A stretch of DNA of 41,007 bases from Chitinophaga pinensis (GCA_945861965.1 CAMAWM010000020.1:1-41007), one strand, 5' to 3'; numbered from the stretch's first letter, positions 16,358 to 27,558 are shown. Made by a program: numbers and translations. Notes: generated by a model from the letters alone, not told the origin.

Positions 16358-19300
16358 TTACTCTCTAATTAATGTAATAGTTCCTCTGACTGTTTTTTCA
16401 ACTTCGCCACGCAATTTGTAAGTGAAAATATAATAATATGTTCCACTTGGACATTGGCTACCATCGTTGTAATTGCTTCCATCCCAAGTTTTCAAAGGCT
16501 TATCGCTTTCAAATACTTTTGCTCCCCAACGATTCCAAATACTTAGATCGTATTTTTCTTCGCCTTCAATTACAATTACAAAGTTGTCGTTTACTTTATC
16601 GCCATTTGGCGTAAACACATTTGGTATGTTTATCTTTTTCTGGAATCTTATATCAAAGACTTTACAAACCGAATCGGGACAAACAGTTGGCGCTTCCATT
16701 CGAGCCACTAAACAAACCAAGAATGTTCCGGTATCGTCTGGAGTTTTAGCAAACTCTTCGATATAATCATTCATTGGGTCGCCATCTTTAATGTTTATCG
16801 GATAACCATTTCTAAGTGTTCCATCTGGATTATAAAGATACCAAGTGTAATTGTCGGCCGATAAAGTATCAGAACGATTAATGAAATTCATAGTCAAGAA
16901 ACTTGTTCGTATGGTATCAAATTCTGCTTTGGTCTTAACGGCTACAACTGTTGCGGTATCTCTCCAATAACAAGGAGGCATATTCAACATAAATCGCGTT
17001 GAGTTAAGTACAAATCGATACGTTCCAGGCGACATAAGTCGATACTTGAACGATGTATCAAGTGTAAAGTTGGTTTTATACAAAGTATCAATTGAATTTA
17101 TAAATGCTGAGTCTAAAACAGCAAGTGTAAATCTCTTAATGGTATCTAATTCTGAGCGATTGAGTACTTTAAATTGTTCGCCAACACAGACTCTTTGTTT
17201 ATCTGTTTCTACATCAACTTTGTAAGGTACTTTGACATGAACGCGTATTGCGGGCTCTACTCCTTGGAAAGTATCGGGAACAAATACCGGACGACAATGT
17301 GCATTGCCCGGTAAATAATCATCGAGTCCAACTCCGGAAATATAATAAGTACCAGCTTTATCGTATGTAAACTCTACGGTATCAATTACCGAATTGTAAA
17401 TTGGAATTTGAGTTCCAGGAATACCCCAATCTATCAAGGTGAGTTTTGTTGGTGTGTCAACAATACCAGTTAAATCTCTATCGGGAATACTTAATATTCT
17501 AACTTTAAATGGAGCACATCCAATGGTATCGTCAAGCAGTATTATTTTTGGTCGAGGTCCCGTTATAAATATGTCTTTTCGGACAGTATCAACACAACCT
17601 TGATCGGTTACAATTACCATCTGCACAGTCCACTTTCCGTTTTTACGATAGTCGTATGTTGGGTTAATTACAACCGAACGGTAGGCATCTGGTCCATAAC
17701 CAAAATCGCCAAACCACCATTTGCGCGAGGTAACATAATCGCAACTTACCAAACCACCGCTATTGATATAACATTGATCAATAACATACGATGAATCTCT
17801 GAATTTAACGGTATCCATACAGAAGAAATAATCGCGACTTGCTATGACAGCCACTGGTTTTACCACATTCAAAAATCTGAAACAAGTATCCCAATATCCA
17901 CAACTATCTCGCGAAATCATAGACACTTTGTAACGACCGGGCGCATCAAACTTATAGGATGGATTTTTTCCTGCAAGGTCAATAACTCCATCCGATTGGA
18001 AATCCCAATAAATGCGTTCAAAGTAAAATGTATCTATTTTAACACAAGATGGTTTTGTATAGGTAGCTGCATCATATATCCAACCGTAAGGACAGGTTCC
18101 TGAAGTCAATGGATAATATTTGGTAACATTAGGATATATTTTAAGGGTATCGTCTGGCCATGTTTTCATTGCCTCGCCATGCAAATCAAAATCGATATAC
18201 GGAAGCTGACCTGGTAACAATGGTCTGAATGGATCGTACAGTGGTCCAGAATTAGGGAACCAATATCTGATGGAATCTGTAAAATGAGCAGTTTCGCCAA
18301 CACAGAATATGGTGTCGTTTATGTCAAACGTATCAATAACCCCGATGACCAGATATTGCAGAGCATAATTTAGACATTCTGTAGTTGTGGTCATTACATG
18401 TTGTAAAGGAGTAATATCTCCTCTTCGATCAAACGTTCCGGGTATTCCTCCAGGTACCATTTGTTCCCAACTTGATTTGAAATATCGGTGTGTTACAGGA
18501 AAGAGTAAAAATGCTGTATCTGTAACCTTTATATTGACATCAATTCTTCCAGGCGCACCAATTTTTAATGGATTATTGCATTGCCAAATTGTATCTCGAA
18601 TGGTATCAATTCTAACATGAACCCCGACCTCAAAAGTGTCAATCTTTAAGACTCGCCAAGGACTCGTATCGTTACTAAACGTGTATCGATATCGTGCTAA
18701 TGGAACTTGGTTAATTCCGTAAAAAAATGAATCGACCGTGATAATTCCATCACCCCAATCCCACGCATCGGCTTTCAGATATTCTTGAGTGCTGTCGTAA
18801 TAATGCACAGATATTTCATCGCCTTTGCCTCTAAGATAACAAAATGCAGACTTAAGTGGAATTACACTATCCCAACGCCAAACAGTAAAGTTAGCATTCA
18901 ATTGAATAAAGTGCCAGAAATTGTGATACCAAACTGTATCAGTTATACATCCCGGTATAGCACAATTACTAGGCGATAAACAACCGTTTCCTAAAATTAA
19001 TCCAATGGTTACCCATCCGTTTGGATCGTATGGAAGACTTTCGTACGCAAGCCCTGGTTGACCAGGAACGTATTGTGCAATAGCACGATTTCCTCCAGGT
19101 CCTGTCCACATAGTTAATGGATTCCAGTTTGCACCATTAAATAATGGCGGCATACTCAAACCACCGGGAGTAACTCCTGTTCCGGTCATTGGCGAAACGC
19201 CAGAGAAATCTGTAAATGCATCCAATGCACAACGCGTATTATCGTATCTGTCGCGAAGCGAATCTTGGTTTATCAATAAGTAAGTTCTTCCGCAAGGAGG

Positions 19301-22015
19301 CATAGTTCCAGGGCTTGGTTGATTTCCAAATGGGTCTAAAAATCCTGATGTGTTAAATGTAAATGTTGGTGTTCCTCCGCCTTGAGCTGCAAATCCGGGG
19401 CAAATTTTTCCATCCATTCCCAAACCATAAGCATCTGGACGAGCTAATGGCAATTGTACTGTGCTTGTTCCATGACAATCCAATGCATCAATAATTAATG
19501 AATCGGTTGGGAAACCAGCATCTTGCGATTTATGATTGAATGAATCGTATTCCATCAATTCGACAGAATAACATTTTTGTATTCTTCGGTCAAATACATA
19601 TCTATAAAAAGTTCGTGGTGGATTTGAATTCGGTATGATATCACTTCCTCTGTATCTACGAAGTGTTCCGTCAGGCATTGGAGTTAAATCGTTTGGAGTA
19701 ATAAATCCACCGGAATCAATGGTGTGACCAGTATTGATTATGGCATCCCAATATCCTTTTGCCTGAGCGAATGGATCGGGAATTGCTACACCAATTGTTA
19801 TCCTTCTGTTTGGATTCATATCGGTTGGCCAAATGCCTCTCATCGTATCCATTCTGGTAGGTACTGGACCTCCAGCAACTACGGGTTTATTCCATTCTTG
19901 AGTATCTTCTTTATGAACAAATTTTCGTCCGGTAGCTCCATTCCATGTTACCAAATTGGGGTCTTTTGTCCAACCCGTTGTTGAGGTATCACATGGTGGA
20001 AAATCGTGTCCGAATTTATACCAGTTAAATACTTTATCCCAGTTTTGGAATGGGTGAATTGGTAAGGTATCGTGAGAAAAATTACAACCAATATATCGAC
20101 CAATATAATCTCTTCCATTTGCAATAAAGCGACCTTCTGTTCGATTAAACATATCGGTAGCGGTATAGTAAGGAGGATTTCCAAAATTGGCTGTAGAATA
20201 ATTTGGAACCGAATAAGAGGTACATGTTGGAGCATAATCACGATCTCCAAAATCCCATTTAATGTAAAAATGTTCTGAGAGATATGTTTTACTTGAATTT
20301 ACAAATTCAACTGGATAATCAGGTCCGCATTGGTTTTTTTGAAATTGTGCCATTGTAATAGGCGGATGATTTCGCGGATCGGGAGCTACTTCGTAAGGTT
20401 GTGCATTTTCAATTTGAACATGTGGCCCTATAATCTGAATTCCATAACCCCAAAATTGTGGCCTTACAAATTTTATTACAGAATCGAGTGGTTTATTATT
20501 AAAAAACCAATAATGTGATGTAATACTATCACCTATTGAATAAGTGCCATCTATTTGTTTTTCAAGTAAAAAACGATACAATGGAATAGAGTCCGTTGGT
20601 TGAATCAAATAACCATTAATTGTATTTAATCTTGGATTTTGTCTTGGCGGGTAGTTTTCTTGATAGTAATTTGGATTGGCTACACCCTCGTACAATGGAT
20701 ACCATCGGTAAATAAATCTTGGATCTGAAAAAGTATCAACTTTAGTATAATAATTATACATTACCGATTTGGGTGGACTACCCGGACAAGAAACTCTTAA
20801 AGTTGGGAAAAACTGCCCCATGTCTTGGTATTTATAACAAGGAGTAAGTTGGTTCAAAAACTTATCCGATCCAGGCGGGTTTGCATTAGGGTCTGCAAAA
20901 TCCCAAAGTATTCCAACTCGCGTTCCTCCAGGCCCTTCAAGCGCATATTTGTTGTACAAACAAACACCGGCTCGACCAAAATCATTGTAACAAATCGAAT
21001 CGCCAAGACTATCGTTAGTAGCACTTCTGCGAGTCATGATATCAATTTTAATTTTTATGTTTTCAGGAAGTTGATTGCCAGTTTGTCCGTAATCAAAAGT
21101 ATCGATGCAATTAAAATATCTATGTTTGATAATCAACTTAGGACGAAACACGCCTTCGATAATGTATTTTTTTACAAATGGAGCCTGGTACATATCTCTA
21201 TCTTTAGTTCCAGTTGGAGTTGTATCGGATGCGTAATAAGTGCCATCGCCAAAAATCCAAACATAGTACCCAACTTCACCGTAAGGAGTTTGGCTTGTAT
21301 TGATAAATGTGTAGGGTGTTGTATCGCAACGAGGAGTGCCATTCAAAGTAAAGCTTGGTCCAATATCTCTTGCAACAAAAATATCGCGTCTTGATTTTAC
21401 ATCGGCATCGCTTGTTTTACAACCTCTGATATCGGTTACGCGCAACGATGTTTGAAATACTCTGTTGCCAAGCGAGTAGTGATGACAAGTTAATCGGTCG
21501 GTAGTATCGTAAACAGCTTTCACTGTTCCATCACCAAATACCCAATAGTAATTAAGCAATGGATTGCTTGGTTGTACATTTTGAGCGGATGTGTTATTAA
21601 AACAATAGCTGTTGTTTTTAAAACATTGCGAATCGCTAGCAGCAAGATTGTAGCTGGTTGATGGTAAGTTATAAACGGTATCCAAATAATTTTTTACTAT
21701 GTCTGGATAGATACCGCCTTTGAATTTAACGATATAGGTAATGTTTAAAAACTGTCCTGTCGTAAATACTTTTTGGAAAAACTGTGTTACTGGGCTTCCT
21801 AAATTGATAACCGCACTGTCGTTTACTCCAAAACGAAGCGTATAGGATTCGACTTGCGAAGCATTAGCAACGCCACCTACCGTAAAAGTATATTGAGCCA
21901 TGTTTCCGGCACATAATATATTTGGCGAAATGGTCATGTCTGCAGTTTGACTTTGCGCTTGAAAGGCTGCAAAAAGCATGAATAAAAACAAGCTAAATTG
22001 GATTGTTTTTTTCAT
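16358..22015 (-). CDS. Giant secreted PKD-domain protein with T9SS type B sorting domain
   Basis: A 1,885-aa protein. The signal peptide MKKTIQFSLFLFMLFAAF ends near QAQSQ. At least seven PKD-like cores can be read: WVFGDG (about 160), WIFGDG (about 255), WDFADP (about 372), WDFGDR (about 588), WDWGDG (about 1085), WDFQSDG (about 1337) and WWFGDFG (about 1435). The stretch of about 640-1060 has no such core and is rich in Pro, Asn, Gly and aromatics. The last 90 residues are a canonical gliding motility-associated domain (NVFTPNGDKVND, LSIWNRWGAKVFE, WDGSNY, GTITLIRE), so it should cross the outer membrane by T9SS and stay on or leave the surface. The open frame reaches 22081, but that start lies upstream of the predicted RNA start. 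ATG 22042 is an alternative to 22015. It is probably an adhesin or matrix protein and lies 93 bp below the anti-sigma-like gene. Confidence 0.9.
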   Translation of the reverse strand: MKKTIQFSLFLFMLFAAFQAQSQTADMTISPNILCAGNMAQYTFTVGGVANASQVESYTLRFGVNDSAVINLGSPVTQFFQKVFTTGQFLNITYIVKFKGGIYPDIVKNYLDTVYNLPSTSYNLAASDSQCFKNNSYCFNNTSAQNVQPSNPLLNYYWVFGDGTVKAVYDTTDRLTCHHYSLGNRVFQTSLRVTDIRGCKTSDADVKSRRDIFVARDIGPSFTLNGTPRCDTTPYTFINTSQTPYGEVGYYVWIFGDGTYYASDTTPTGTKDRDMYQAPFVKKYIIEGVFRPKLIIKHRYFNCIDTFDYGQTGNQLPENIKIKIDIMTRRSATNDSLGDSICYNDFGRAGVCLYNKYALEGPGGTRVGILWDFADPNANPPGSDKFLNQLTPCYKYQDMGQFFPTLRVSCPGSPPKSVMYNYYTKVDTFSDPRFIYRWYPLYEGVANPNYYQENYPPRQNPRLNTINGYLIQPTDSIPLYRFLLEKQIDGTYSIGDSITSHYWFFNNKPLDSVIKFVRPQFWGYGIQIIGPHVQIENAQPYEVAPDPRNHPPITMAQFQKNQCGPDYPVEFVNSSKTYLSEHFYIKWDFGDRDYAPTCTSYSVPNYSTANFGNPPYYTATDMFNRTEGRFIANGRDYIGRYIGCNFSHDTLPIHPFQNWDKVFNWYKFGHDFPPCDTSTTGWTKDPNLVTWNGATGRKFVHKEDTQEWNKPVVAGGPVPTRMDTMRGIWPTDMNPNRRITIGVAIPDPFAQAKGYWDAIINTGHTIDSGGFITPNDLTPMPDGTLRRYRGSDIIPNSNPPRTFYRYVFDRRIQKCYSVELMEYDSFNHKSQDAGFPTDSLIIDALDCHGTSTVQLPLARPDAYGLGMDGKICPGFAAQGGGTPTFTFNTSGFLDPFGNQPSPGTMPPCGRTYLLINQDSLRDRYDNTRCALDAFTDFSGVSPMTGTGVTPGGLSMPPLFNGANWNPLTMWTGPGGNRAIAQYVPGQPGLAYESLPYDPNGWVTIGLILGNGCLSPSNCAIPGCITDTVWYHNFWHFIQLNANFTVWRWDSVIPLKSAFCYLRGKGDEISVHYYDSTQEYLKADAWDWGDGIITVDSFFYGINQVPLARYRYTFSNDTSPWRVLKIDTFEVGVHVRIDTIRDTIWQCNNPLKIGAPGRIDVNIKVTDTAFLLFPVTHRYFKSSWEQMVPGGIPGTFDRRGDITPLQHVMTTTTECLNYALQYLVIGVIDTFDINDTIFCVGETAHFTDSIRYWFPNSGPLYDPFRPLLPGQLPYIDFDLHGEAMKTWPDDTLKIYPNVTKYYPLTSGTCPYGWIYDAATYTKPSCVKIDTFYFERIYWDFQSDGVIDLAGKNPSYKFDAPGRYKVSMISRDSCGYWDTCFRFLNVVKPVAVIASRDYFFCMDTVKFRDSSYVIDQCYINSGGLVSCDYVTSRKWWFGDFGYGPDAYRSVVINPTYDYRKNGKWTVQMVIVTDQGCVDTVRKDIFITGPRPKIILLDDTIGCAPFKVRILSIPDRDLTGIVDTPTKLTLIDWGIPGTQIPIYNSVIDTVEFTYDKAGTYYISGVGLDDYLPGNAHCRPVFVPDTFQGVEPAIRVHVKVPYKVDVETDKQRVCVGEQFKVLNRSELDTIKRFTLAVLDSAFINSIDTLYKTNFTLDTSFKYRLMSPGTYRFVLNSTRFMLNMPPCYWRDTATVVAVKTKAEFDTIRTSFLTMNFINRSDTLSADNYTWYLYNPDGTLRNGYPINIKDGDPMNDYIEEFAKTPDDTGTFLVCLVARMEAPTVCPDSVCKVFDIRFQKKINIPNVFTPNGDKVNDNFVIVIEGEEKYDLSIWNRWGAKVFESDKPLKTWDGSNYNDGSQCPSGTYYYIFTYKLRGEVEKTVRGTITLIRE

Positions 22016-22074
22016 AAAAAAATTGGTAATAGTTGTATTCATGATGATGTGATTTCTGGTGTTAATTTTTTTCG

Positions 22075-22105
22075 CTAACATAGTATTATATTTTTTATAA
22101 GCAAA
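22075..22105 (-). promoter_or_regulatory. Candidate promoter for the giant PKD gene
   Basis: On the minus strand TTTG (22105 to 22102) is followed after 19 bp by TATGTTAG (22082 to 22075), one mismatch from TAnnTTTG. Spacing and order are as expected for the Bacteroidota housekeeping promoter. The predicted RNA start near 22068 excludes the longest start at 22081 and leaves 22042 or 22015. It would let the adhesin be transcribed apart from the sigma/anti-sigma pair. Confidence 0.5.
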
Positions 22106-22108
22106 CGT

Positions 22109-22975
22109 TTATCTCAATAAATTCAATCCTCTATTTTTGGTTCTAACTTCTTGTTGGTTATTTAATTGATAAACAACAGTAACTGCATACATTCCAACTT
22201 CGCAAGGCAAGCCATTTTTATAGTTGCCATCCCAACCCTCATTTTTATCATCGGTTTCAAAAATCAACTCGTTTTTAAAGTTGTAAATGCTTAGGTGAAA
22301 GAGCTTTTCGTTTTCAATTTTTACAATGTATTTATCATTCAATCCATCGTTGTCGGGCGAAAATGCGTTGGTCAAAACGACAGCATCGTCTTGCAATTGG
22401 TTATCTGAAACTGGTTTTTGGATGGCTGTATTATTTGACGGAACAACATTTGAATTGTGTTTTACTGCTTTCGGAGCTACTTCAATTTTTGCTGCAGAAT
22501 GGATTACGTTATCAATGGCTACTTTAGTAAAATCAATTTTTGCTGCATCAATTGTTGTTGAAATCGAAGCCACATTTTCAACTAAATTAATTGGAGTTGA
22601 TTTTATTTCAGCAGCTTTAATTTTACTTTTTACTTTGGGTTTTATTAGAATAGTTTCTGTTTGAATACTTGTTTTTTGAATGTCAATAATGGGCTCAGGC
22701 TTTACTTGAGAAGCTGAAATATTTTGCTCTGTTTTAGTTGCGTTTTCTGTTTGTTTAGTTGCAAAGTAAGTTAATGCAACTGCAGCCGGAACAACAAGTA
22801 CCGCAACGGTTTTGCCAAACCAAGCTAAGTTTTTTATGCTTGAAAATATATTGCCCGAATTGCCAGCTGCATTATTCGCAGCTTTTTCAATTCCACTCCA
22901 AACACCCGAAGGAGGTTCGGGAGCATAATTCTGCAATTGTTTTTTTAAAATAATATCTAACGAATTATCTTCCAC
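22109..22975 (-). CDS. Anti-sigma-like membrane protein fused to a T9SS type B-like domain
   Basis: A 288-aa protein without a cleavable signal peptide. Residues 1-50 are a short cytoplasmic part with LKKQLQNYAPEPPSGVWSGI, the kind of N-terminus found in Bacteroidota proteins encoded after ECF sigma genes. One membrane helix (about 55-71, VAVLVVPAAVALTYFA) follows. A Lys/Ile/Val/Thr-rich linker (72-195) leads to a gliding motility-associated domain (201-288: NAFSPDNDGLND, HLSIYNFKNELIFE, GWDGNYKNG, RGLNLLR). In this copy the usual NRWG is NFKN and the C-terminal GTITL is altered. The start is GTG 22975, overlapping the sigma gene by 11 bp; no ATG precedes the membrane helix. That position and the topology suggest an anti-sigma factor. 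Classical zinc anti-sigma motifs are absent, so binding to sigma is inferred. Confidence 0.8.
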   Translation of the reverse strand: MEDNSLDIILKKQLQNYAPEPPSGVWSGIEKAANNAAGNSGNIFSSIKNLAWFGKTVAVLVVPAAVALTYFATKQTENATKTEQNISASQVKPEPIIDIQKTSIQTETILIKPKVKSKIKAAEIKSTPINLVENVASISTTIDAAKIDFTKVAIDNVIHSAAKIEVAPKAVKHNSNVVPSNNTAIQKPVSDNQLQDDAVVLTNAFSPDNDGLNDKYIVKIENEKLFHLSIYNFKNELIFETDDKNEGWDGNYKNGLPCEVGMYAVTVVYQLNNQQEVRTKNRGLNLLR

Positions 22976-23519
22976 TTACCAAGTTGTTATTTAATTTTTT
23001 GTACTCTTCCATAAAAACTTTTCTTGCTCTGGATAATTGAGATTTTGATGTCCCTTCGTTTATTTCGAGCATATCAGCAATTTCGGCATGGCTATATCCT
23101 TCGATAGCATATAAATTTAAAACTGTTCTATACCCTGGGGCCATTTTATTCAACACTTCCAATATTTCTTTAATACTTATTTTTTCTAAACTAAAACTAT
23201 CAAAACCAACCGACCATGCTGTATCTACATCACTTTGTGCTTGGTACACTTTGTTTACTCTGTAATGTTCCAAAGCACAATTAATAAAAATTCGTTTCAT
23301 CCAACCCTCTACACTTCCTTTGCCACTGTATTGATTTATTTTGCTAAAAATTTTTATAAATCCCTCTTGCAAAATATCTCTGGCATCGTCTGACGAATTG
23401 CTATACCTAACACATACACCGTACATTTGGCTTTTGCACAAATCGTATAATTGTTTTTGTGCTTTTGCCTCGTTTTTAATACATCGTTGTATAAGTTCGG
23501 GTTCAATCTGTAAACTCAC
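22965..23519 (-). CDS. ECF-type RNA polymerase sigma factor
   Basis: A 184-aa sigma-70 family protein with only regions 2 and 4, as in ECF factors. Region 2 (about 10-88) includes DDARDILQEGFIKIFSKI, the core polymerase-binding helix, then GSVEGWMKRIFINCALEHYR for -10 recognition. Region 4 (about 115-172) includes MAPGYRTVLNLYAIEGYSHA and EIADMLEINEGTSKSQLSRA, a helix-turn-helix for the -35 site. The start is GTG 23519, since an in-frame TGA lies just upstream. It overlaps the anti-sigma-like gene by 11 bp. Likely targets are its own operon or nearby surface genes, but none is proven. It is divergent from the SBBP-type gene. Confidence 0.93.
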   Translation of the reverse strand: MSLQIEPELIQRCIKNEAKAQKQLYDLCKSQMYGVCVRYSNSSDDARDILQEGFIKIFSKINQYSGKGSVEGWMKRIFINCALEHYRVNKVYQAQSDVDTAWSVGFDSFSLEKISIKEILEVLNKMAPGYRTVLNLYAIEGYSHAEIADMLEINEGTSKSQLSRARKVFMEEYKKLNNNLVSGR

Positions 23520-23655
23520 CTTTGGTCAATTAATGTTAATGATTTGATTTGCGCTCTTTTGGTTGCAAGCAAAATAAAATTTATTTATTTTTTTATAAAA
23601 ACAACTTCAACTTCAATTATTTAATCTATAATGTATTAATTTAGCAGATGTTTTT

Positions 23656-26463
23656 TTGAATAAACACCTTGAATTGAACCCATATAAACAAAATATTTTC
23701 TTTTTCTTTTTGCTGATTGGGTTTGCTCAAAACATTTCGGCTGCAAATGAAATTCCTTCGTTCAAACCTCAAATAGAATTTACTGAAAACAAAGGGCAAT
23801 GGAACGAAGATATACAATTCCGATTTTTTTCCTCATCGCTCGATATTCATTTGAAAAAAAATGGAATCAATTATTACCTTTTTGATGAAAAAGATATAGC
23901 GGAAATTTTTAAACATCCAAGCTCTGAAAAACCAAAAATAACAAGCGCCAAATCGCATTTTATTCAATTAAATTTTATAGGTGCAAATTCAAACATTGAA
24001 ATTAGCAAACAAAAGAAGTCAGCGCATTATTACAACTACTTTTTGGGCAGTGAAAGAAACAAATGGAAAAGTCGTATTTATGCTTATCAAGACATACTTT
24101 ATTCAAATATTTATGAGGGAATTGATTTAAAAATTTCTTCATCTGGTGATGAGTTAAAATACGATTGGATTTTGAAGCCAAATGCCGATCCTACAAAAAT
24201 TAAAATGAACTTTGAAGGTGCCACTAATTTAAAATCAGAATACGGTGATTTGTTCATTTATCACAGTCTTGGTTTTATGCGCGAACGAAAGCCCATTGCT
24301 TACCAAATTATTGACGGAAAACATGTTGACGTTTTAGTTGAGTTTGTAATTTTGGGTAAAAATGTAAGTTTTAATTTACTAGAAGGGTACAATAAAAATT
24401 ACGAATTAATTATTGATCCTCAACTCATTTTTAGTACCTATTCGGGCTCGCGAGTTGATAATTTTGGTTTCACTGCCACATACGATTCGCAAGGACATTT
24501 ATACATTGGCGGAATAGGAAGCAGCCATGCATTGGGAAACAATTTTGATACTTCAGGATACCCAACAACACCAGGAGCTTTTCAGAAATATTTTAAAAAC
24601 GGAAGTGCAATGCCGCCAGTAAATTTGCCTTGTGATATTACGATTAGTAAATACAGTGCCGATGGAAAAAATTTACTTTATGCAACTTATTTTGGCGGAA
24701 GCGGAAATGAACATCCGCATAGTTTGGTTGTAGACAAAGACGATAATTTTATTTTTTTTGGAACCACTAATTCTTACGACTTTCCTACAACAATAAATGG
24801 ATACGATACCACCGCAAATGGATCGTTTGATTTGTTTGTCGCCAAGTTTGATTCGGCTTGCAATGGATTAATTGCATCAACCTATTTGGGCGGATCATAC
24901 AACGATGGATTGAATAATATTGACGAAGGAACTGGAGGATTGCATCATTTTTATGCCGATGATTTTAGAGGCGATATCATTCCGGATAAAAGCGGAAATA
25001 TCTTACTTGCCACGGTTAGCCAATCAGTAGATTTTCCTGTTACAAATGGTTCATTTGGCGGAGCAATTACACAAGGACAAAAAGGAGTTGTGCTAAAGTT
25101 TTCGCCCAATCTTGATTCATTAATTTTTAGCGGATCAATTGGCGGAAAATCAGGAAACGAAGCAATTTATAGCATTGATTTAAATAGTAACGAAGATATT
25201 TATATAGCCGGAGGAACCAGCAGTGTTGATAGTTTTCCGGGAATAACGAACACTTATTTTGGTGGCATTTCAGATGGATTTATCACAAAAATAAAAAATG
25301 ACGGATCGCAAATTCTCAAGTCCTTATATTTTGGTACAAACAAGTACGACCAAATATATTCACTGGAATTAGACAAAAGCGAAAACGTTTTCATTGTTGG
25401 GCAAAGTTTGGGAAATATTGCAGTAAGTCCAACGGTTTACAACAATCCAGGAACGCATCATTTTATTGCTAGTCTCGACAAAAATCTAAACGCAACAATT
25501 TTTTCGACCGTATTTGGAGGAAGTAAAAATAATCTCAACATCACCATCAACGCTTTTTTGGTTGATGATTGTGGAAGAATTTATGTTGCAGGTTGGGGCG
25601 CATCAGGTTTTACTCCAGCATCGGGCACAACAGATAGTTTGCCAGTAACAACCGATGCGTATAAAAAAACTACTGACGGAAGAGATTTTTATTTATTGGT
25701 TTTAGGAAAAAATGCAGAGAATCTTTTGTATGCAAGTTTTTTTGGTGGAACCAACAGCAGCGACCATGTGGATGGCGGAACGAGTAGATTTGACAAAAAA
25801 GGCGTGGTTTATCAATCGGTATGTGCCAGTTGCCAAAATCCGGGACCGCCATTAAGCGATTTTCCTACAACTGCGGGAGTAAAATTTCCGCAAAACTTAA
25901 GTCCGCGTTGTAGCAATGCGGGGTTTAAATTTGATTTTAAAATTCCCAATGCCGACTTTGATTTTGGAATTGATACCTGTGCCGACATCATAAATTTTGC
26001 AAGCAAAACTCCAGATGCTGACGGTTATTTATGGATTTTTCCGGATGGACAAACAACGACAGAAAAAAATCCCGTAATGGTATTATCCAAACTAGTAAAT
26101 AAAGAGGTAATGCTAATCACCAATCCGGGAAGTTTATGCTCAGATACGATTAAAAAATTAATTATTTTTAACGATACAATTGTGTTTCCGTTTGTGCCCA
26201 ATGTGTTTACACCCAACAACGATGGCGTAAATGATTTTTATTTTTTTAACGGATTAAAAAGAGGTTGCGACAAAGTTGAAATTAAAATATACAACCGTTG
26301 GGGACAATTGTATTTTGAAGCATCTCAGACCGATTTTACATGGGACGGAACAGACGGAAAAGGAAGTTTAGCTCCAGTGGGCGTTTACTTTTACATAGGA
26401 ATGTTTAAGCAAATGGGCAAACCCGAAGTAAAATTACATGGAACAATCACATTATTGAGATAG
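23656..26463 (+). CDS. Secreted SBBP/beta-propeller protein with T9SS type B domain
   Basis: A 935-aa exported protein. A hydrophobic signal segment (IFFFFLLIGFAQNISA) is followed by a DUF7948-like N-terminal domain (about 35-260, with FTENKGQWNEDIQFRF). Then come SBBP-type beta-propeller repeats (about 265-720, recurring patterns such as YATYFGGSGNEHPHSL, ASTYLGGSYNDGL and YASFFGGTNSSDH). A PKD-like turn follows, and the last 85 residues form a canonical gliding motility-associated domain (NVFTPNNDGVND, IYNRWGQLYFE, WDGTDGKG, GTITLLR). The start is uncertain: TTG 23656 is in frame, TTG 23674 would also keep the signal peptide, and an ATG at 23648 is out of frame because of a seven-T run. It is transcribed away from the sigma gene. 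Confidence 0.88.
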   Translation: MNKHLELNPYKQNIFFFFLLIGFAQNISAANEIPSFKPQIEFTENKGQWNEDIQFRFFSSSLDIHLKKNGINYYLFDEKDIAEIFKHPSSEKPKITSAKSHFIQLNFIGANSNIEISKQKKSAHYYNYFLGSERNKWKSRIYAYQDILYSNIYEGIDLKISSSGDELKYDWILKPNADPTKIKMNFEGATNLKSEYGDLFIYHSLGFMRERKPIAYQIIDGKHVDVLVEFVILGKNVSFNLLEGYNKNYELIIDPQLIFSTYSGSRVDNFGFTATYDSQGHLYIGGIGSSHALGNNFDTSGYPTTPGAFQKYFKNGSAMPPVNLPCDITISKYSADGKNLLYATYFGGSGNEHPHSLVVDKDDNFIFFGTTNSYDFPTTINGYDTTANGSFDLFVAKFDSACNGLIASTYLGGSYNDGLNNIDEGTGGLHHFYADDFRGDIIPDKSGNILLATVSQSVDFPVTNGSFGGAITQGQKGVVLKFSPNLDSLIFSGSIGGKSGNEAIYSIDLNSNEDIYIAGGTSSVDSFPGITNTYFGGISDGFITKIKNDGSQILKSLYFGTNKYDQIYSLELDKSENVFIVGQSLGNIAVSPTVYNNPGTHHFIASLDKNLNATIFSTVFGGSKNNLNITINAFLVDDCGRIYVAGWGASGFTPASGTTDSLPVTTDAYKKTTDGRDFYLLVLGKNAENLLYASFFGGTNSSDHVDGGTSRFDKKGVVYQSVCASCQNPGPPLSDFPTTAGVKFPQNLSPRCSNAGFKFDFKIPNADFDFGIDTCADIINFASKTPDADGYLWIFPDGQTTTEKNPVMVLSKLVNKEVMLITNPGSLCSDTIKKLIIFNDTIVFPFVPNVFTPNNDGVNDFYFFNGLKRGCDKVEIKIYNRWGQLYFEASQTDFTWDGTDGKGSLAPVGVYFYIGMFKQMGKPEVKLHGTITLLR

Positions 26464-26469
26464 CTTGTT

Positions 26470-26477
26470 TATCTTTG
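26470..26477 (+). promoter_or_regulatory. -7 promoter box for the PTPS gene
   Basis: TATCTTTG is a perfect TAnnTTTG box 7 bp after the previous stop codon and 18 bp before the ATG at 26496. No good -33 TTTG at 19 bp was found. It supports ATG 26496 over the TTG at 26475, which lies inside the box. Confidence 0.4.
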
Positions 26478-26495
26478 AAGCCCCAAAAAAACAAA

Positions 26496-26906
26496 ATGGA
26501 AATAACAGTTTCGCGAAAAACAAATTTTAATGCTGCGCATAGGTTGCATGTAAATTCGTGGAGCGATGAAAAGAACAAATCAATTTTTGGATTGTGCAAC
26601 AATCCAAATTTTCATGGACATAATTACCAATTGATTGTTGCTGTTAGCGGAGAAATGGAAACAGAAAGCGGGTTTTTAATTGATTTAAAAATATTGAAAC
26701 AAATTATTTTTGAAGAAGTTGAAGAAAAATTTGATCACAAAAACTTGAATATGGATACCGATGAATTTAAAAATATAAATCCAACGGCAGAAAATATTGC
26801 AATTGTAATTTGGAACTTGTTGAGAAAAAGATTGAATACGAATTTAAAAATGAAAGTCACACTTTATGAAACCGAAAGAAACTTTGTTGAGTACAACGGA
26901 AATTAA
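26496..26906 (+). CDS. 6-pyruvoyl-tetrahydropterin synthase/QueD family enzyme
   Basis: A 136-aa enzyme of the PTPS/QueD family, acting on 7,8-dihydroneopterin triphosphate. The zinc ligands are visible: His in NAAHRLH (about 15-21) and the HGH pair in CNNPNFHGHNY (about 35-45). The catalytic Cys stands five residues before HGH, the spacing of animal 6-pyruvoyl-tetrahydropterin synthase; E. coli QueD has three. The C-terminal TLYETERNFVEY carries the pterin-binding Glu. Many databases would label it 6-carboxytetrahydropterin synthase, so the product (queuosine precursor or a tetrahydropterin) is open. ATG 26496 was chosen because a -7 box precedes it. It overlaps folE by 41 bp. Confidence 0.88.
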   Translation: MEITVSRKTNFNAAHRLHVNSWSDEKNKSIFGLCNNPNFHGHNYQLIVAVSGEMETESGFLIDLKILKQIIFEEVEEKFDHKNLNMDTDEFKNINPTAENIAIVIWNLLRKRLNTNLKMKVTLYETERNFVEYNGN

Positions 26907-27558
26907 AAAATTAGCGGAGTCTGAAATTGAAAACGATCATTCTTCGTTTTCGATGGATACTGCACTTAGAGAAGATGCATTTGAGTTGGATGACGATTTG
27001 AAAATTGAATTGATCGAAAAGCATTTTAAAGAAATTATGCTCATTTTGGGGCTTGATTTAAATGACGATAGTCTTAGCGGAACTCCGCACAGAGTTGCCA
27101 AAATGTATGTAAAAGAAATGTTTAAAGGCCTAAAACCTGAAAACGAACCCAAATCGCGCCTTTTTGAAAATAAGTACGAGTACAAGAACATGCTGATCGA
27201 AAAAAATATTTCGTTTCACAGTGTTTGCGAACATCATTTTGTACCAATTATTGGCAATGCGCATTTGGCATATTTCCCCAACGATCAAGTTATTGGTTTG
27301 TCGAAATTAAATAGAATAGTGGGGTATTTTGCACAAAGGCCACAAGTGCAAGAACGAATGACAATGCAAATTTCAAAAATGTTGAAAGAGGTACTGAAAA
27401 CCGAAGATATTGCTGTAATAATTGAAGCCGATCATTTGTGTGTAGCCATGCGTGGCGTACAAGACGAAAGCAGCAGCACAGTTACCAGCGATTTTTCGGG
27501 AAAGTTTAAAGATGCCGAATGCAGAGAAGAGCTTATTAAATTTATTTCGATGAAATAA
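26866..27558 (+). CDS. folE: GTP cyclohydrolase I
   Basis: Converts GTP to 7,8-dihydroneopterin triphosphate, the substrate of the preceding enzyme and the entry to folate and pterins. The protein is up to 230 aa. The zinc ligands are visible in HSVCEHHFVP and ADHLCVAMRGVQ, with SKLNRIVGYFAQRPQVQERM in between and GTPHRVAKMY near the N-terminus of the core. The first 45 residues are an acidic, poorly conserved extension, and ATG 26866 lies inside the preceding gene. A later ATG at 26953 is possible and would remove most of this overlap. The stop is 1 bp from the convergent permease stop. Confidence 0.95.
   Translation: MKPKETLLSTTEIKKLAESEIENDHSSFSMDTALREDAFELDDDLKIELIEKHFKEIMLILGLDLNDDSLSGTPHRVAKMYVKEMFKGLKPENEPKSRLFENKYEYKNMLIEKNISFHSVCEHHFVPIIGNAHLAYFPNDQVIGLSKLNRIVGYFAQRPQVQERMTMQISKMLKEVLKTEDIAVIIEADHLCVAMRGVQDESSSTVTSDFSGKFKDAECREELIKFISMK

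Follow-up and report, generated by a model that had tools for sequence, protein, structure and literature searches.

The window analysed here is a 41,007-nucleotide stretch from Chitinophaga pinensis (GCA_945861965.1, CAMAWM010000020.1:1-41007). On its minus strand lie the genes for an extracytoplasmic function (ECF) sigma factor, a one-pass membrane protein of 288 amino acids with the layout of an anti-sigma factor, and a giant cargo of the type IX secretion system (T9SS). Judged by the spacing of the genes, the three are probably transcribed as one operon. The anti-sigma-type protein ends in a degenerate T9SS type B C-terminal domain (CTD), of the Pfam family CHU_C, in which the RWG motif is lost. 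Architecture, conservation, gene order, an ECF-type promoter element and the RWG loss can be read directly from the sequences. We propose, as close to an even call, an autoregulated ECF sigma/anti-sigma/cargo operon in which the CTD of the anti-sigma factor docks, without being exported, on a PorP/SprF-type barrel or another part of the T9SS.

The open reading frames of the sigma factor, the membrane protein and the cargo were confirmed at the positions given in the first-pass annotation. The sigma gene (22965-23519, minus strand, GTG start) encodes 184 amino acids, with Pfam Sigma70_r2 and r4_2 matches above the cut-offs; its best NCBIfam match, NF058625, scored below the cut-off of that model. 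It overlaps by 11 bp the gene of the Dma-like 288-amino-acid protein (22109-22975, minus strand, GTG start), which is separated by a gap of 27 bp from the cargo gene (16358-22081, minus strand). The cargo, of type B, contains PKD domains (PKD_4) and a C-terminal PF13585 domain (74.9 bits) with the canonical IWNRWG sequence. It measures 1,907 amino acids from the first ATG and 1,885 from a later start at 22015, which is the likelier one because a typical signal peptide (MKKTIQFSLFLF...) begins there. The layout thus agrees with the first-pass annotation, which had described the overlap, the CHU_C end of the membrane protein and the 1,885-residue CHU_C cargo following it.

The 288-residue protein starts with a putatively cytoplasmic anti-sigma-type module (residues 1-35; 22871-22975, minus strand) with the pattern ID.LLK......P.P..VW..I, in which P22 and W26 are invariant across 25 homologues. 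A single hydrophobic segment follows at residues ~50-74. No N-terminal signal peptide was apparent from the sequence layout, no dedicated predictor having been applied; the first hydrophobic stretch occurs only from about residue 50, behind the conserved soluble module. This arrangement suggests a cytoplasmic N-terminus and the absence of a signal peptide. AlphaFold2 predicted helices at residues 5-14 and 25-35, a low-confidence or disordered region at 39-195 and a well-defined CTD at 198-288 (pLDDT 94-97). The linker is poorly conserved, with a mean identity of 13.7% vs 36% in residues 1-35 and 39% in the CTD, and the length of the tether ranges from 122 to 204 amino acids across 32 short forms. 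Chance adjacency of the genes and a wrongly started cargo gene were both ruled out because the N-terminal module is kept before the transmembrane segment in the 25 homologues.

The proposal that the membrane protein is an anti-sigma factor gained support from its transmembrane segment, its place in the operon and its relatives. Related ECF sigma factors adjoin proteins that share the N-terminal module and the transmembrane segment and that have three kinds of ending: a long one, a short one without a recognised domain, and CHU_C. Three of the four long partners tested matched models of outer-membrane beta-barrels, near or over the cut-off, and hhalign matched the N-termini of the CHU_C proteins to those of the long group with a probability of 98.5 (E 1.9e-15). 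On a tree of 125 sigma factors the CHU_C label required 8 changes, vs 39.7 in shuffles. Long open frames had hinted at natural fusions of sigma and anti-sigma factor; the genes were separate in L263 and L264, and no fusion was seen in L262. About three tandem N-terminal modules were seen in L263:1994-3196 (minus strand) and L264:2406-4136 (plus strand); CHU_C forms the end of one of these proteins, and a beta-barrel may form that of the other. The genome of the window itself has a second, more distant ECF gene on contig C21 (L266:2413-4204; 138 bits to the profile), followed by a 406-amino-acid protein with a similar N-terminus (IDELFRNKL), without a barrel according to Pfam, and then by a PKD protein.

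The C-terminal domain of the anti-sigma-type protein (residues 198-288; 22112-22384, minus strand; PF13585, 45.3 bits) differs from that of the cargo. Both exceed the Pfam CHU_C cut-off of 27 bits, and the cargo also passes the 35-bit cut-off of TIGR04131, the type B sorting domain, with 46.2 bits. The 288-residue protein reached only 31.0 bits, a first hint of an atypical CTD. In the CTD of this protein NRWG is replaced (IYNFKNELIFE). In the final set of related, and hence not independent, sequences the RWG of I.NRWG occurred in 0 of 64 anti-sigma CTDs vs 33 of 36 CHU_C third genes; an earlier set had given 0/51 for anti-sigma partners and 53/58 for other CHU_C proteins. The remaining signatures (PNVFTPNxDGxND, WxG and GxY) are nearly as conserved in the anti-sigma CTDs as in cargo, and the C-terminal motif is weaker and partly conserved. 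Type B CTDs possess five motifs, A-E, each required for secretion, with B, D and E located on strands (Paillat and colleagues, PMC12618676), and from its order and position RWG is presumably part of motif B. With RWG lost, the anti-sigma CTD is probably no longer an export signal, though it seems to keep surfaces of one. Several origins of the anti-sigma CTDs were considered and a single origin was not rejected (approximately unbiased test, AU p 0.334), the alignment of 87 columns offering little resolution.

These results bear on whether the CTD leaves the periplasm. Cleavage and secretion in the manner of ordinary cargo, which the first-pass annotation had named as fatal to its proposal, is unlikely with both the signal peptide and the RWG motif missing. 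Alternatively, the CTD might pass the T9SS translocon to the cell surface with the N-terminus still anchored in the inner membrane, giving a trans-envelope surface sensor. An extended tether of the observed length could span the periplasm and the C-terminal end is partly conserved, but type B secretion is blocked by mutations in the motifs, and the shortest type B signals were reported to exceed this 90-residue domain in length (PMC12618676). With RWG missing in every one of the 64 CTDs as well, we regard such a sensor as very improbable.

The conservation of the arrangement was examined in loci collected by alignment of the sigma factor, so that an adjacent ECF gene was given by the design of the survey. 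A scan of genome contigs with the 288-residue protein gave no match; a search of 58 relatives yielded full-length homologues with 25-35% identity in the family to which the window belongs. The sigma factor is 35-68% identical to its orthologues. Within the family, the pair of sigma factor and CHU_C protein was found in 34 of 35 genomes, counting a contig fragment (L271) and a targeted search; the sole genome in which it was not shown is G003, which is 91% complete. Bacteroidetes bacterium UKL13-3 (CP012155.1), whose sigma factor is identical to that of contig G021:C1, belongs to this family. Ten other family codes (f5, f9, f15, f18, f19, f20, f22, f38, f44 and f53) also have the pair, as do named records, among them the cultured Crocinitomix catalasitica ATCC 23190, which has the pair only. 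In total 64 loci with the pair were read. The gene order is therefore not peculiar to one genome, and the combination of a CTD-family domain beyond the membrane with CTD cargo in the same operon, as described in the first-pass annotation, was seen in other genomes too.

The third gene was conserved to a varying extent. The order sigma factor, CHU_C protein and large protein clustering with the cargo of the window was found in 29 of 30 loci; in the thirtieth, L043 from another family, the cargo was too divergent to cluster. The third gene encoded CHU_C cargo in all 25 loci of the window's family in which it was complete and, outside this family, in f9, f20, f22, f38, f44 and f53. The expectation that a CHU_C cargo would accompany the pair thus held in the window's family and did not hold in f15, f19 and several Flavobacteriales. 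Flanking genes outside the sigma/anti-sigma/cargo set differ almost everywhere among the 30 loci. Some loci showed further peculiarities: in L253 and L257 (f15) a CHU_C anti-sigma-type gene is flanked by two ECF sigma genes, with profile scores of ~230 and 125; in L070, L073 and L076 a gene with a PorV-like start (GATGMQFLKVVPDARSSAMGG) lies two genes past the cargo; and L148, a contig labelled Treponema that carries a typical Bacteroidales-type sigma/anti-sigma pair, is probably a binning error.

An ECF-type promoter element, TTGCAACC-N16-AATCA, is located at 23540-23568 on the minus strand, ~21 bp upstream of the GTG of the sigma gene. The consensus before the sigma genes is TTGCAACC-N16-[AC]ATC[AT] (MATCW), some 20 bp ahead of the start codon. 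A slightly relaxed form was present at 18 of 20 loci of the family, vs 0.025 expected from shuffles, and variants precede the sigma genes in several other families. In its own genome the strict element occurred twice, once as the sigma promoter and once with wider spacing. A wider regulon was considered and dropped: additional sites in the family were scattered, and among the part of them that was inspected no conserved second target emerged. The element is putatively the promoter of this sigma factor, and the simplest reading is that the sigma factor autoregulates the operon including the cargo gene. Since the operon has a conserved ECF-type promoter of its own, a circuit of sigma factor and cargo is likely. 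The feedback circuit between export and transcription put forward in the first-pass annotation stays a plausible hypothesis.

Facing the operon is a fourth gene that was absent from the first-pass annotation, encoding a divergent DUF7948/SBBP cargo with a canonical CHU_C domain according to Pfam (23656-26463, plus strand). It neighbours the operon in 21 of 30 loci, but no copy of the sigma motif turned up on that side in the window, leaving membership of the regulon unsupported. Farther along, at 26475-27558 (plus strand), two genes with a 41-bp overlap resemble by sequence a 6-pyruvoyl tetrahydropterin synthase-type protein and GTP cyclohydrolase I.

For sigma binding, topology, docking partner and release step we infer the following scheme. 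The cytoplasmic N-terminus of the 288-residue protein would hold the sigma factor; one helix would span the inner membrane and the long disordered tether would let the folded CTD reach the outer membrane. There the CTD would dock on a PorP/SprF-type barrel or other T9SS part without export, by analogy with Dma. When docking is changed, because cargo occupies the barrel or because the barrel is missing or disturbed, the sigma factor would be freed and would direct transcription of its own gene, of the inhibitor gene and of the gene for the giant surface protein. Docking of this kind is the most likely mechanism because PorP-like outer-membrane barrels are known to bind type B CTDs (PMC9143113). 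The genome has a T9SS, with SprA at 2451.7 bits and three PorP/SprF genes. More tentatively, and with odds somewhat below even, a trans-envelope anti-sigma factor may have taken over a worn type B tag as a pseudo-substrate; by reading how far the T9SS shuttle or translocon is occupied, this tag would link the transcription of a surface protein to the path by which that protein is exported.

The first-pass annotation had explained the shared domain differently, by competition with cargo at the secretion machinery or sensing of unsecreted cargo. In this version the CTD is a decoy that vies for the shuttle or translocon with the CTDs of cargo not yet secreted, and a backlog of cargo displaces it and alters sigma activity. 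Such a role would be consistent with a CTD of the same family in the operon's own cargo, with the conservation of this co-operonic cargo in the window's family and several others, and with an anti-sigma CTD that is nearer to the CTD of the operon cargo (identity 0.378) than to that of the divergent cargo (0.303). The tracking of a cognate cargo that mimicry would predict was not found: the identity of anti-sigma and operon cargo CTDs was 0.378 within a genome vs 0.383 between genomes, on which ground mimicry of the cognate cargo was rejected. The CTDs of the operon and divergent cargos are just as alike (0.386), and RWG is lost throughout the anti-sigma set. Release of sigma factor by a backlog would also raise cargo production and so close a positive loop, unless displacement made sigma binding tighter. 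We consider the decoy distinctly unlikely, and the pairs without cargo count against it as well.

The docking scheme has to face several of the same observations, which weigh against it too. Sigma binding by the N-terminus is deduced from homology only, and same-genome CTDs are no more similar than those from different genomes. The module contains no PorP/SprF gene, the copies of its own genome lying on other contigs. Pairs without an adjacent cargo gene exist in f15, f19, L127, L178 and L185, so the switch does not depend on the cargo. Finally, the RWG loss could also mean that the CTD has quit its T9SS contacts.

This last point leads to a serious rival, namely that an Ig/FlgD-like fold was reused for another signal, as a periplasmic ligand or envelope-stress sensor with no contact to the T9SS. 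Foldseek searches with the CTD returned Ig-like domains, among them ones from PorU and PorZ of the T9SS, and also FlgD and general Ig-like matches; in several anti-sigma-type forms a PKD domain precedes the CTD. Fold reuse would furthermore account for the weakened C-terminal motif along with the missing RWG, and for pairs without cargo. It would fit less well with the near-cargo conservation of PNVFTPNxDGxND, WxG and GxY, which a bare fold might not need, and with CTD cargo being the third gene in several families. On balance we find fold reuse unlikely, and docking on the T9SS remains the reading we prefer.

Few links of the T9SS to gene control have been described, namely PorXY-SigP and PorA in Porphyromonas. 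Here an anti-sigma-type protein is tied to a type B export tag, usually with a co-directional cargo gene, in at least eleven family-level groups of Bacteroidota. If the proposal is true, it suggests that cells may match how much of a surface protein they make to the condition of its export route. Whether cells sense the export state of the T9SS is directly testable with such pairs, including that of the cultured C. catalasitica. The loss of RWG together with the N-terminal PPxxVWxxI motif provides a diagnostic for splitting regulators from cargo among proteins annotated as 'gliding motility-associated C-terminal domain'.

The first-pass annotation knew of no described system of exactly this form. 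A literature search likewise brought up no description of an anti-sigma factor that carries a CHU_C or type B domain, the survey of relatives in the original Dma1 paper (PNAS 2024) lying outside its coverage; the claim holds in this narrow sense, the layout of Dma (PMC13088901) and the role of PorA (PMC7712824) having precedents in print. With type B cargo and its PorP/SprF shuttles (SprB/SprF and PG1035/PorP; PMC9143113, PMC12618676) the system has the CHU_C family in common, and the operon cargo is of that kind. The anti-sigma-type protein differs from such cargo by having no signal peptide, no RWG, a TIGR04131 score below the cut-off and no adjacent shuttle gene. PorA is the nearest precedent for a CTD protein upstream of an ECF sigma factor. 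In Porphyromonas gingivalis, where a type B CTD is found only in PGN_1317, PorA has a signal peptide, reaches the cell surface and acts upstream of the two-component system PorXY of the PorXY-SigP pathway (PMC7712824). Both cases would have a T9SS CTD-domain protein influencing an ECF sigma factor; here, in contrast, a membrane anti-sigma-type protein with no apparent signal peptide carries the CTD (PorXY was not searched for). The other near precedent is the Dma group of anti-sigma factors, which have the same layout with a beta-barrel where the CTD sits here (PMC13088901). Common to both are a gene beside an ECF sigma gene, an N-terminal sigma-binding region (putative in the present protein), one transmembrane helix, a long disordered tether and a C-terminal envelope domain, and dma2 likewise belongs to a three-gene operon (PMC13088901). 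In the present system the C-terminal domain is instead a degenerate T9SS type B CTD with an Ig-like CHU_C fold, and the third gene usually encodes a large T9SS cargo. Because the defining beta-barrel is absent we call the protein Dma-like rather than Dma, its N-terminus having been compared with the barrel-ended partners of related ECF sigma factors and not with Bt Dma1/Dma2. The comparison points to a larger family with exchangeable outer ends, of which the Dma-type anti-sigma factors would form one branch.

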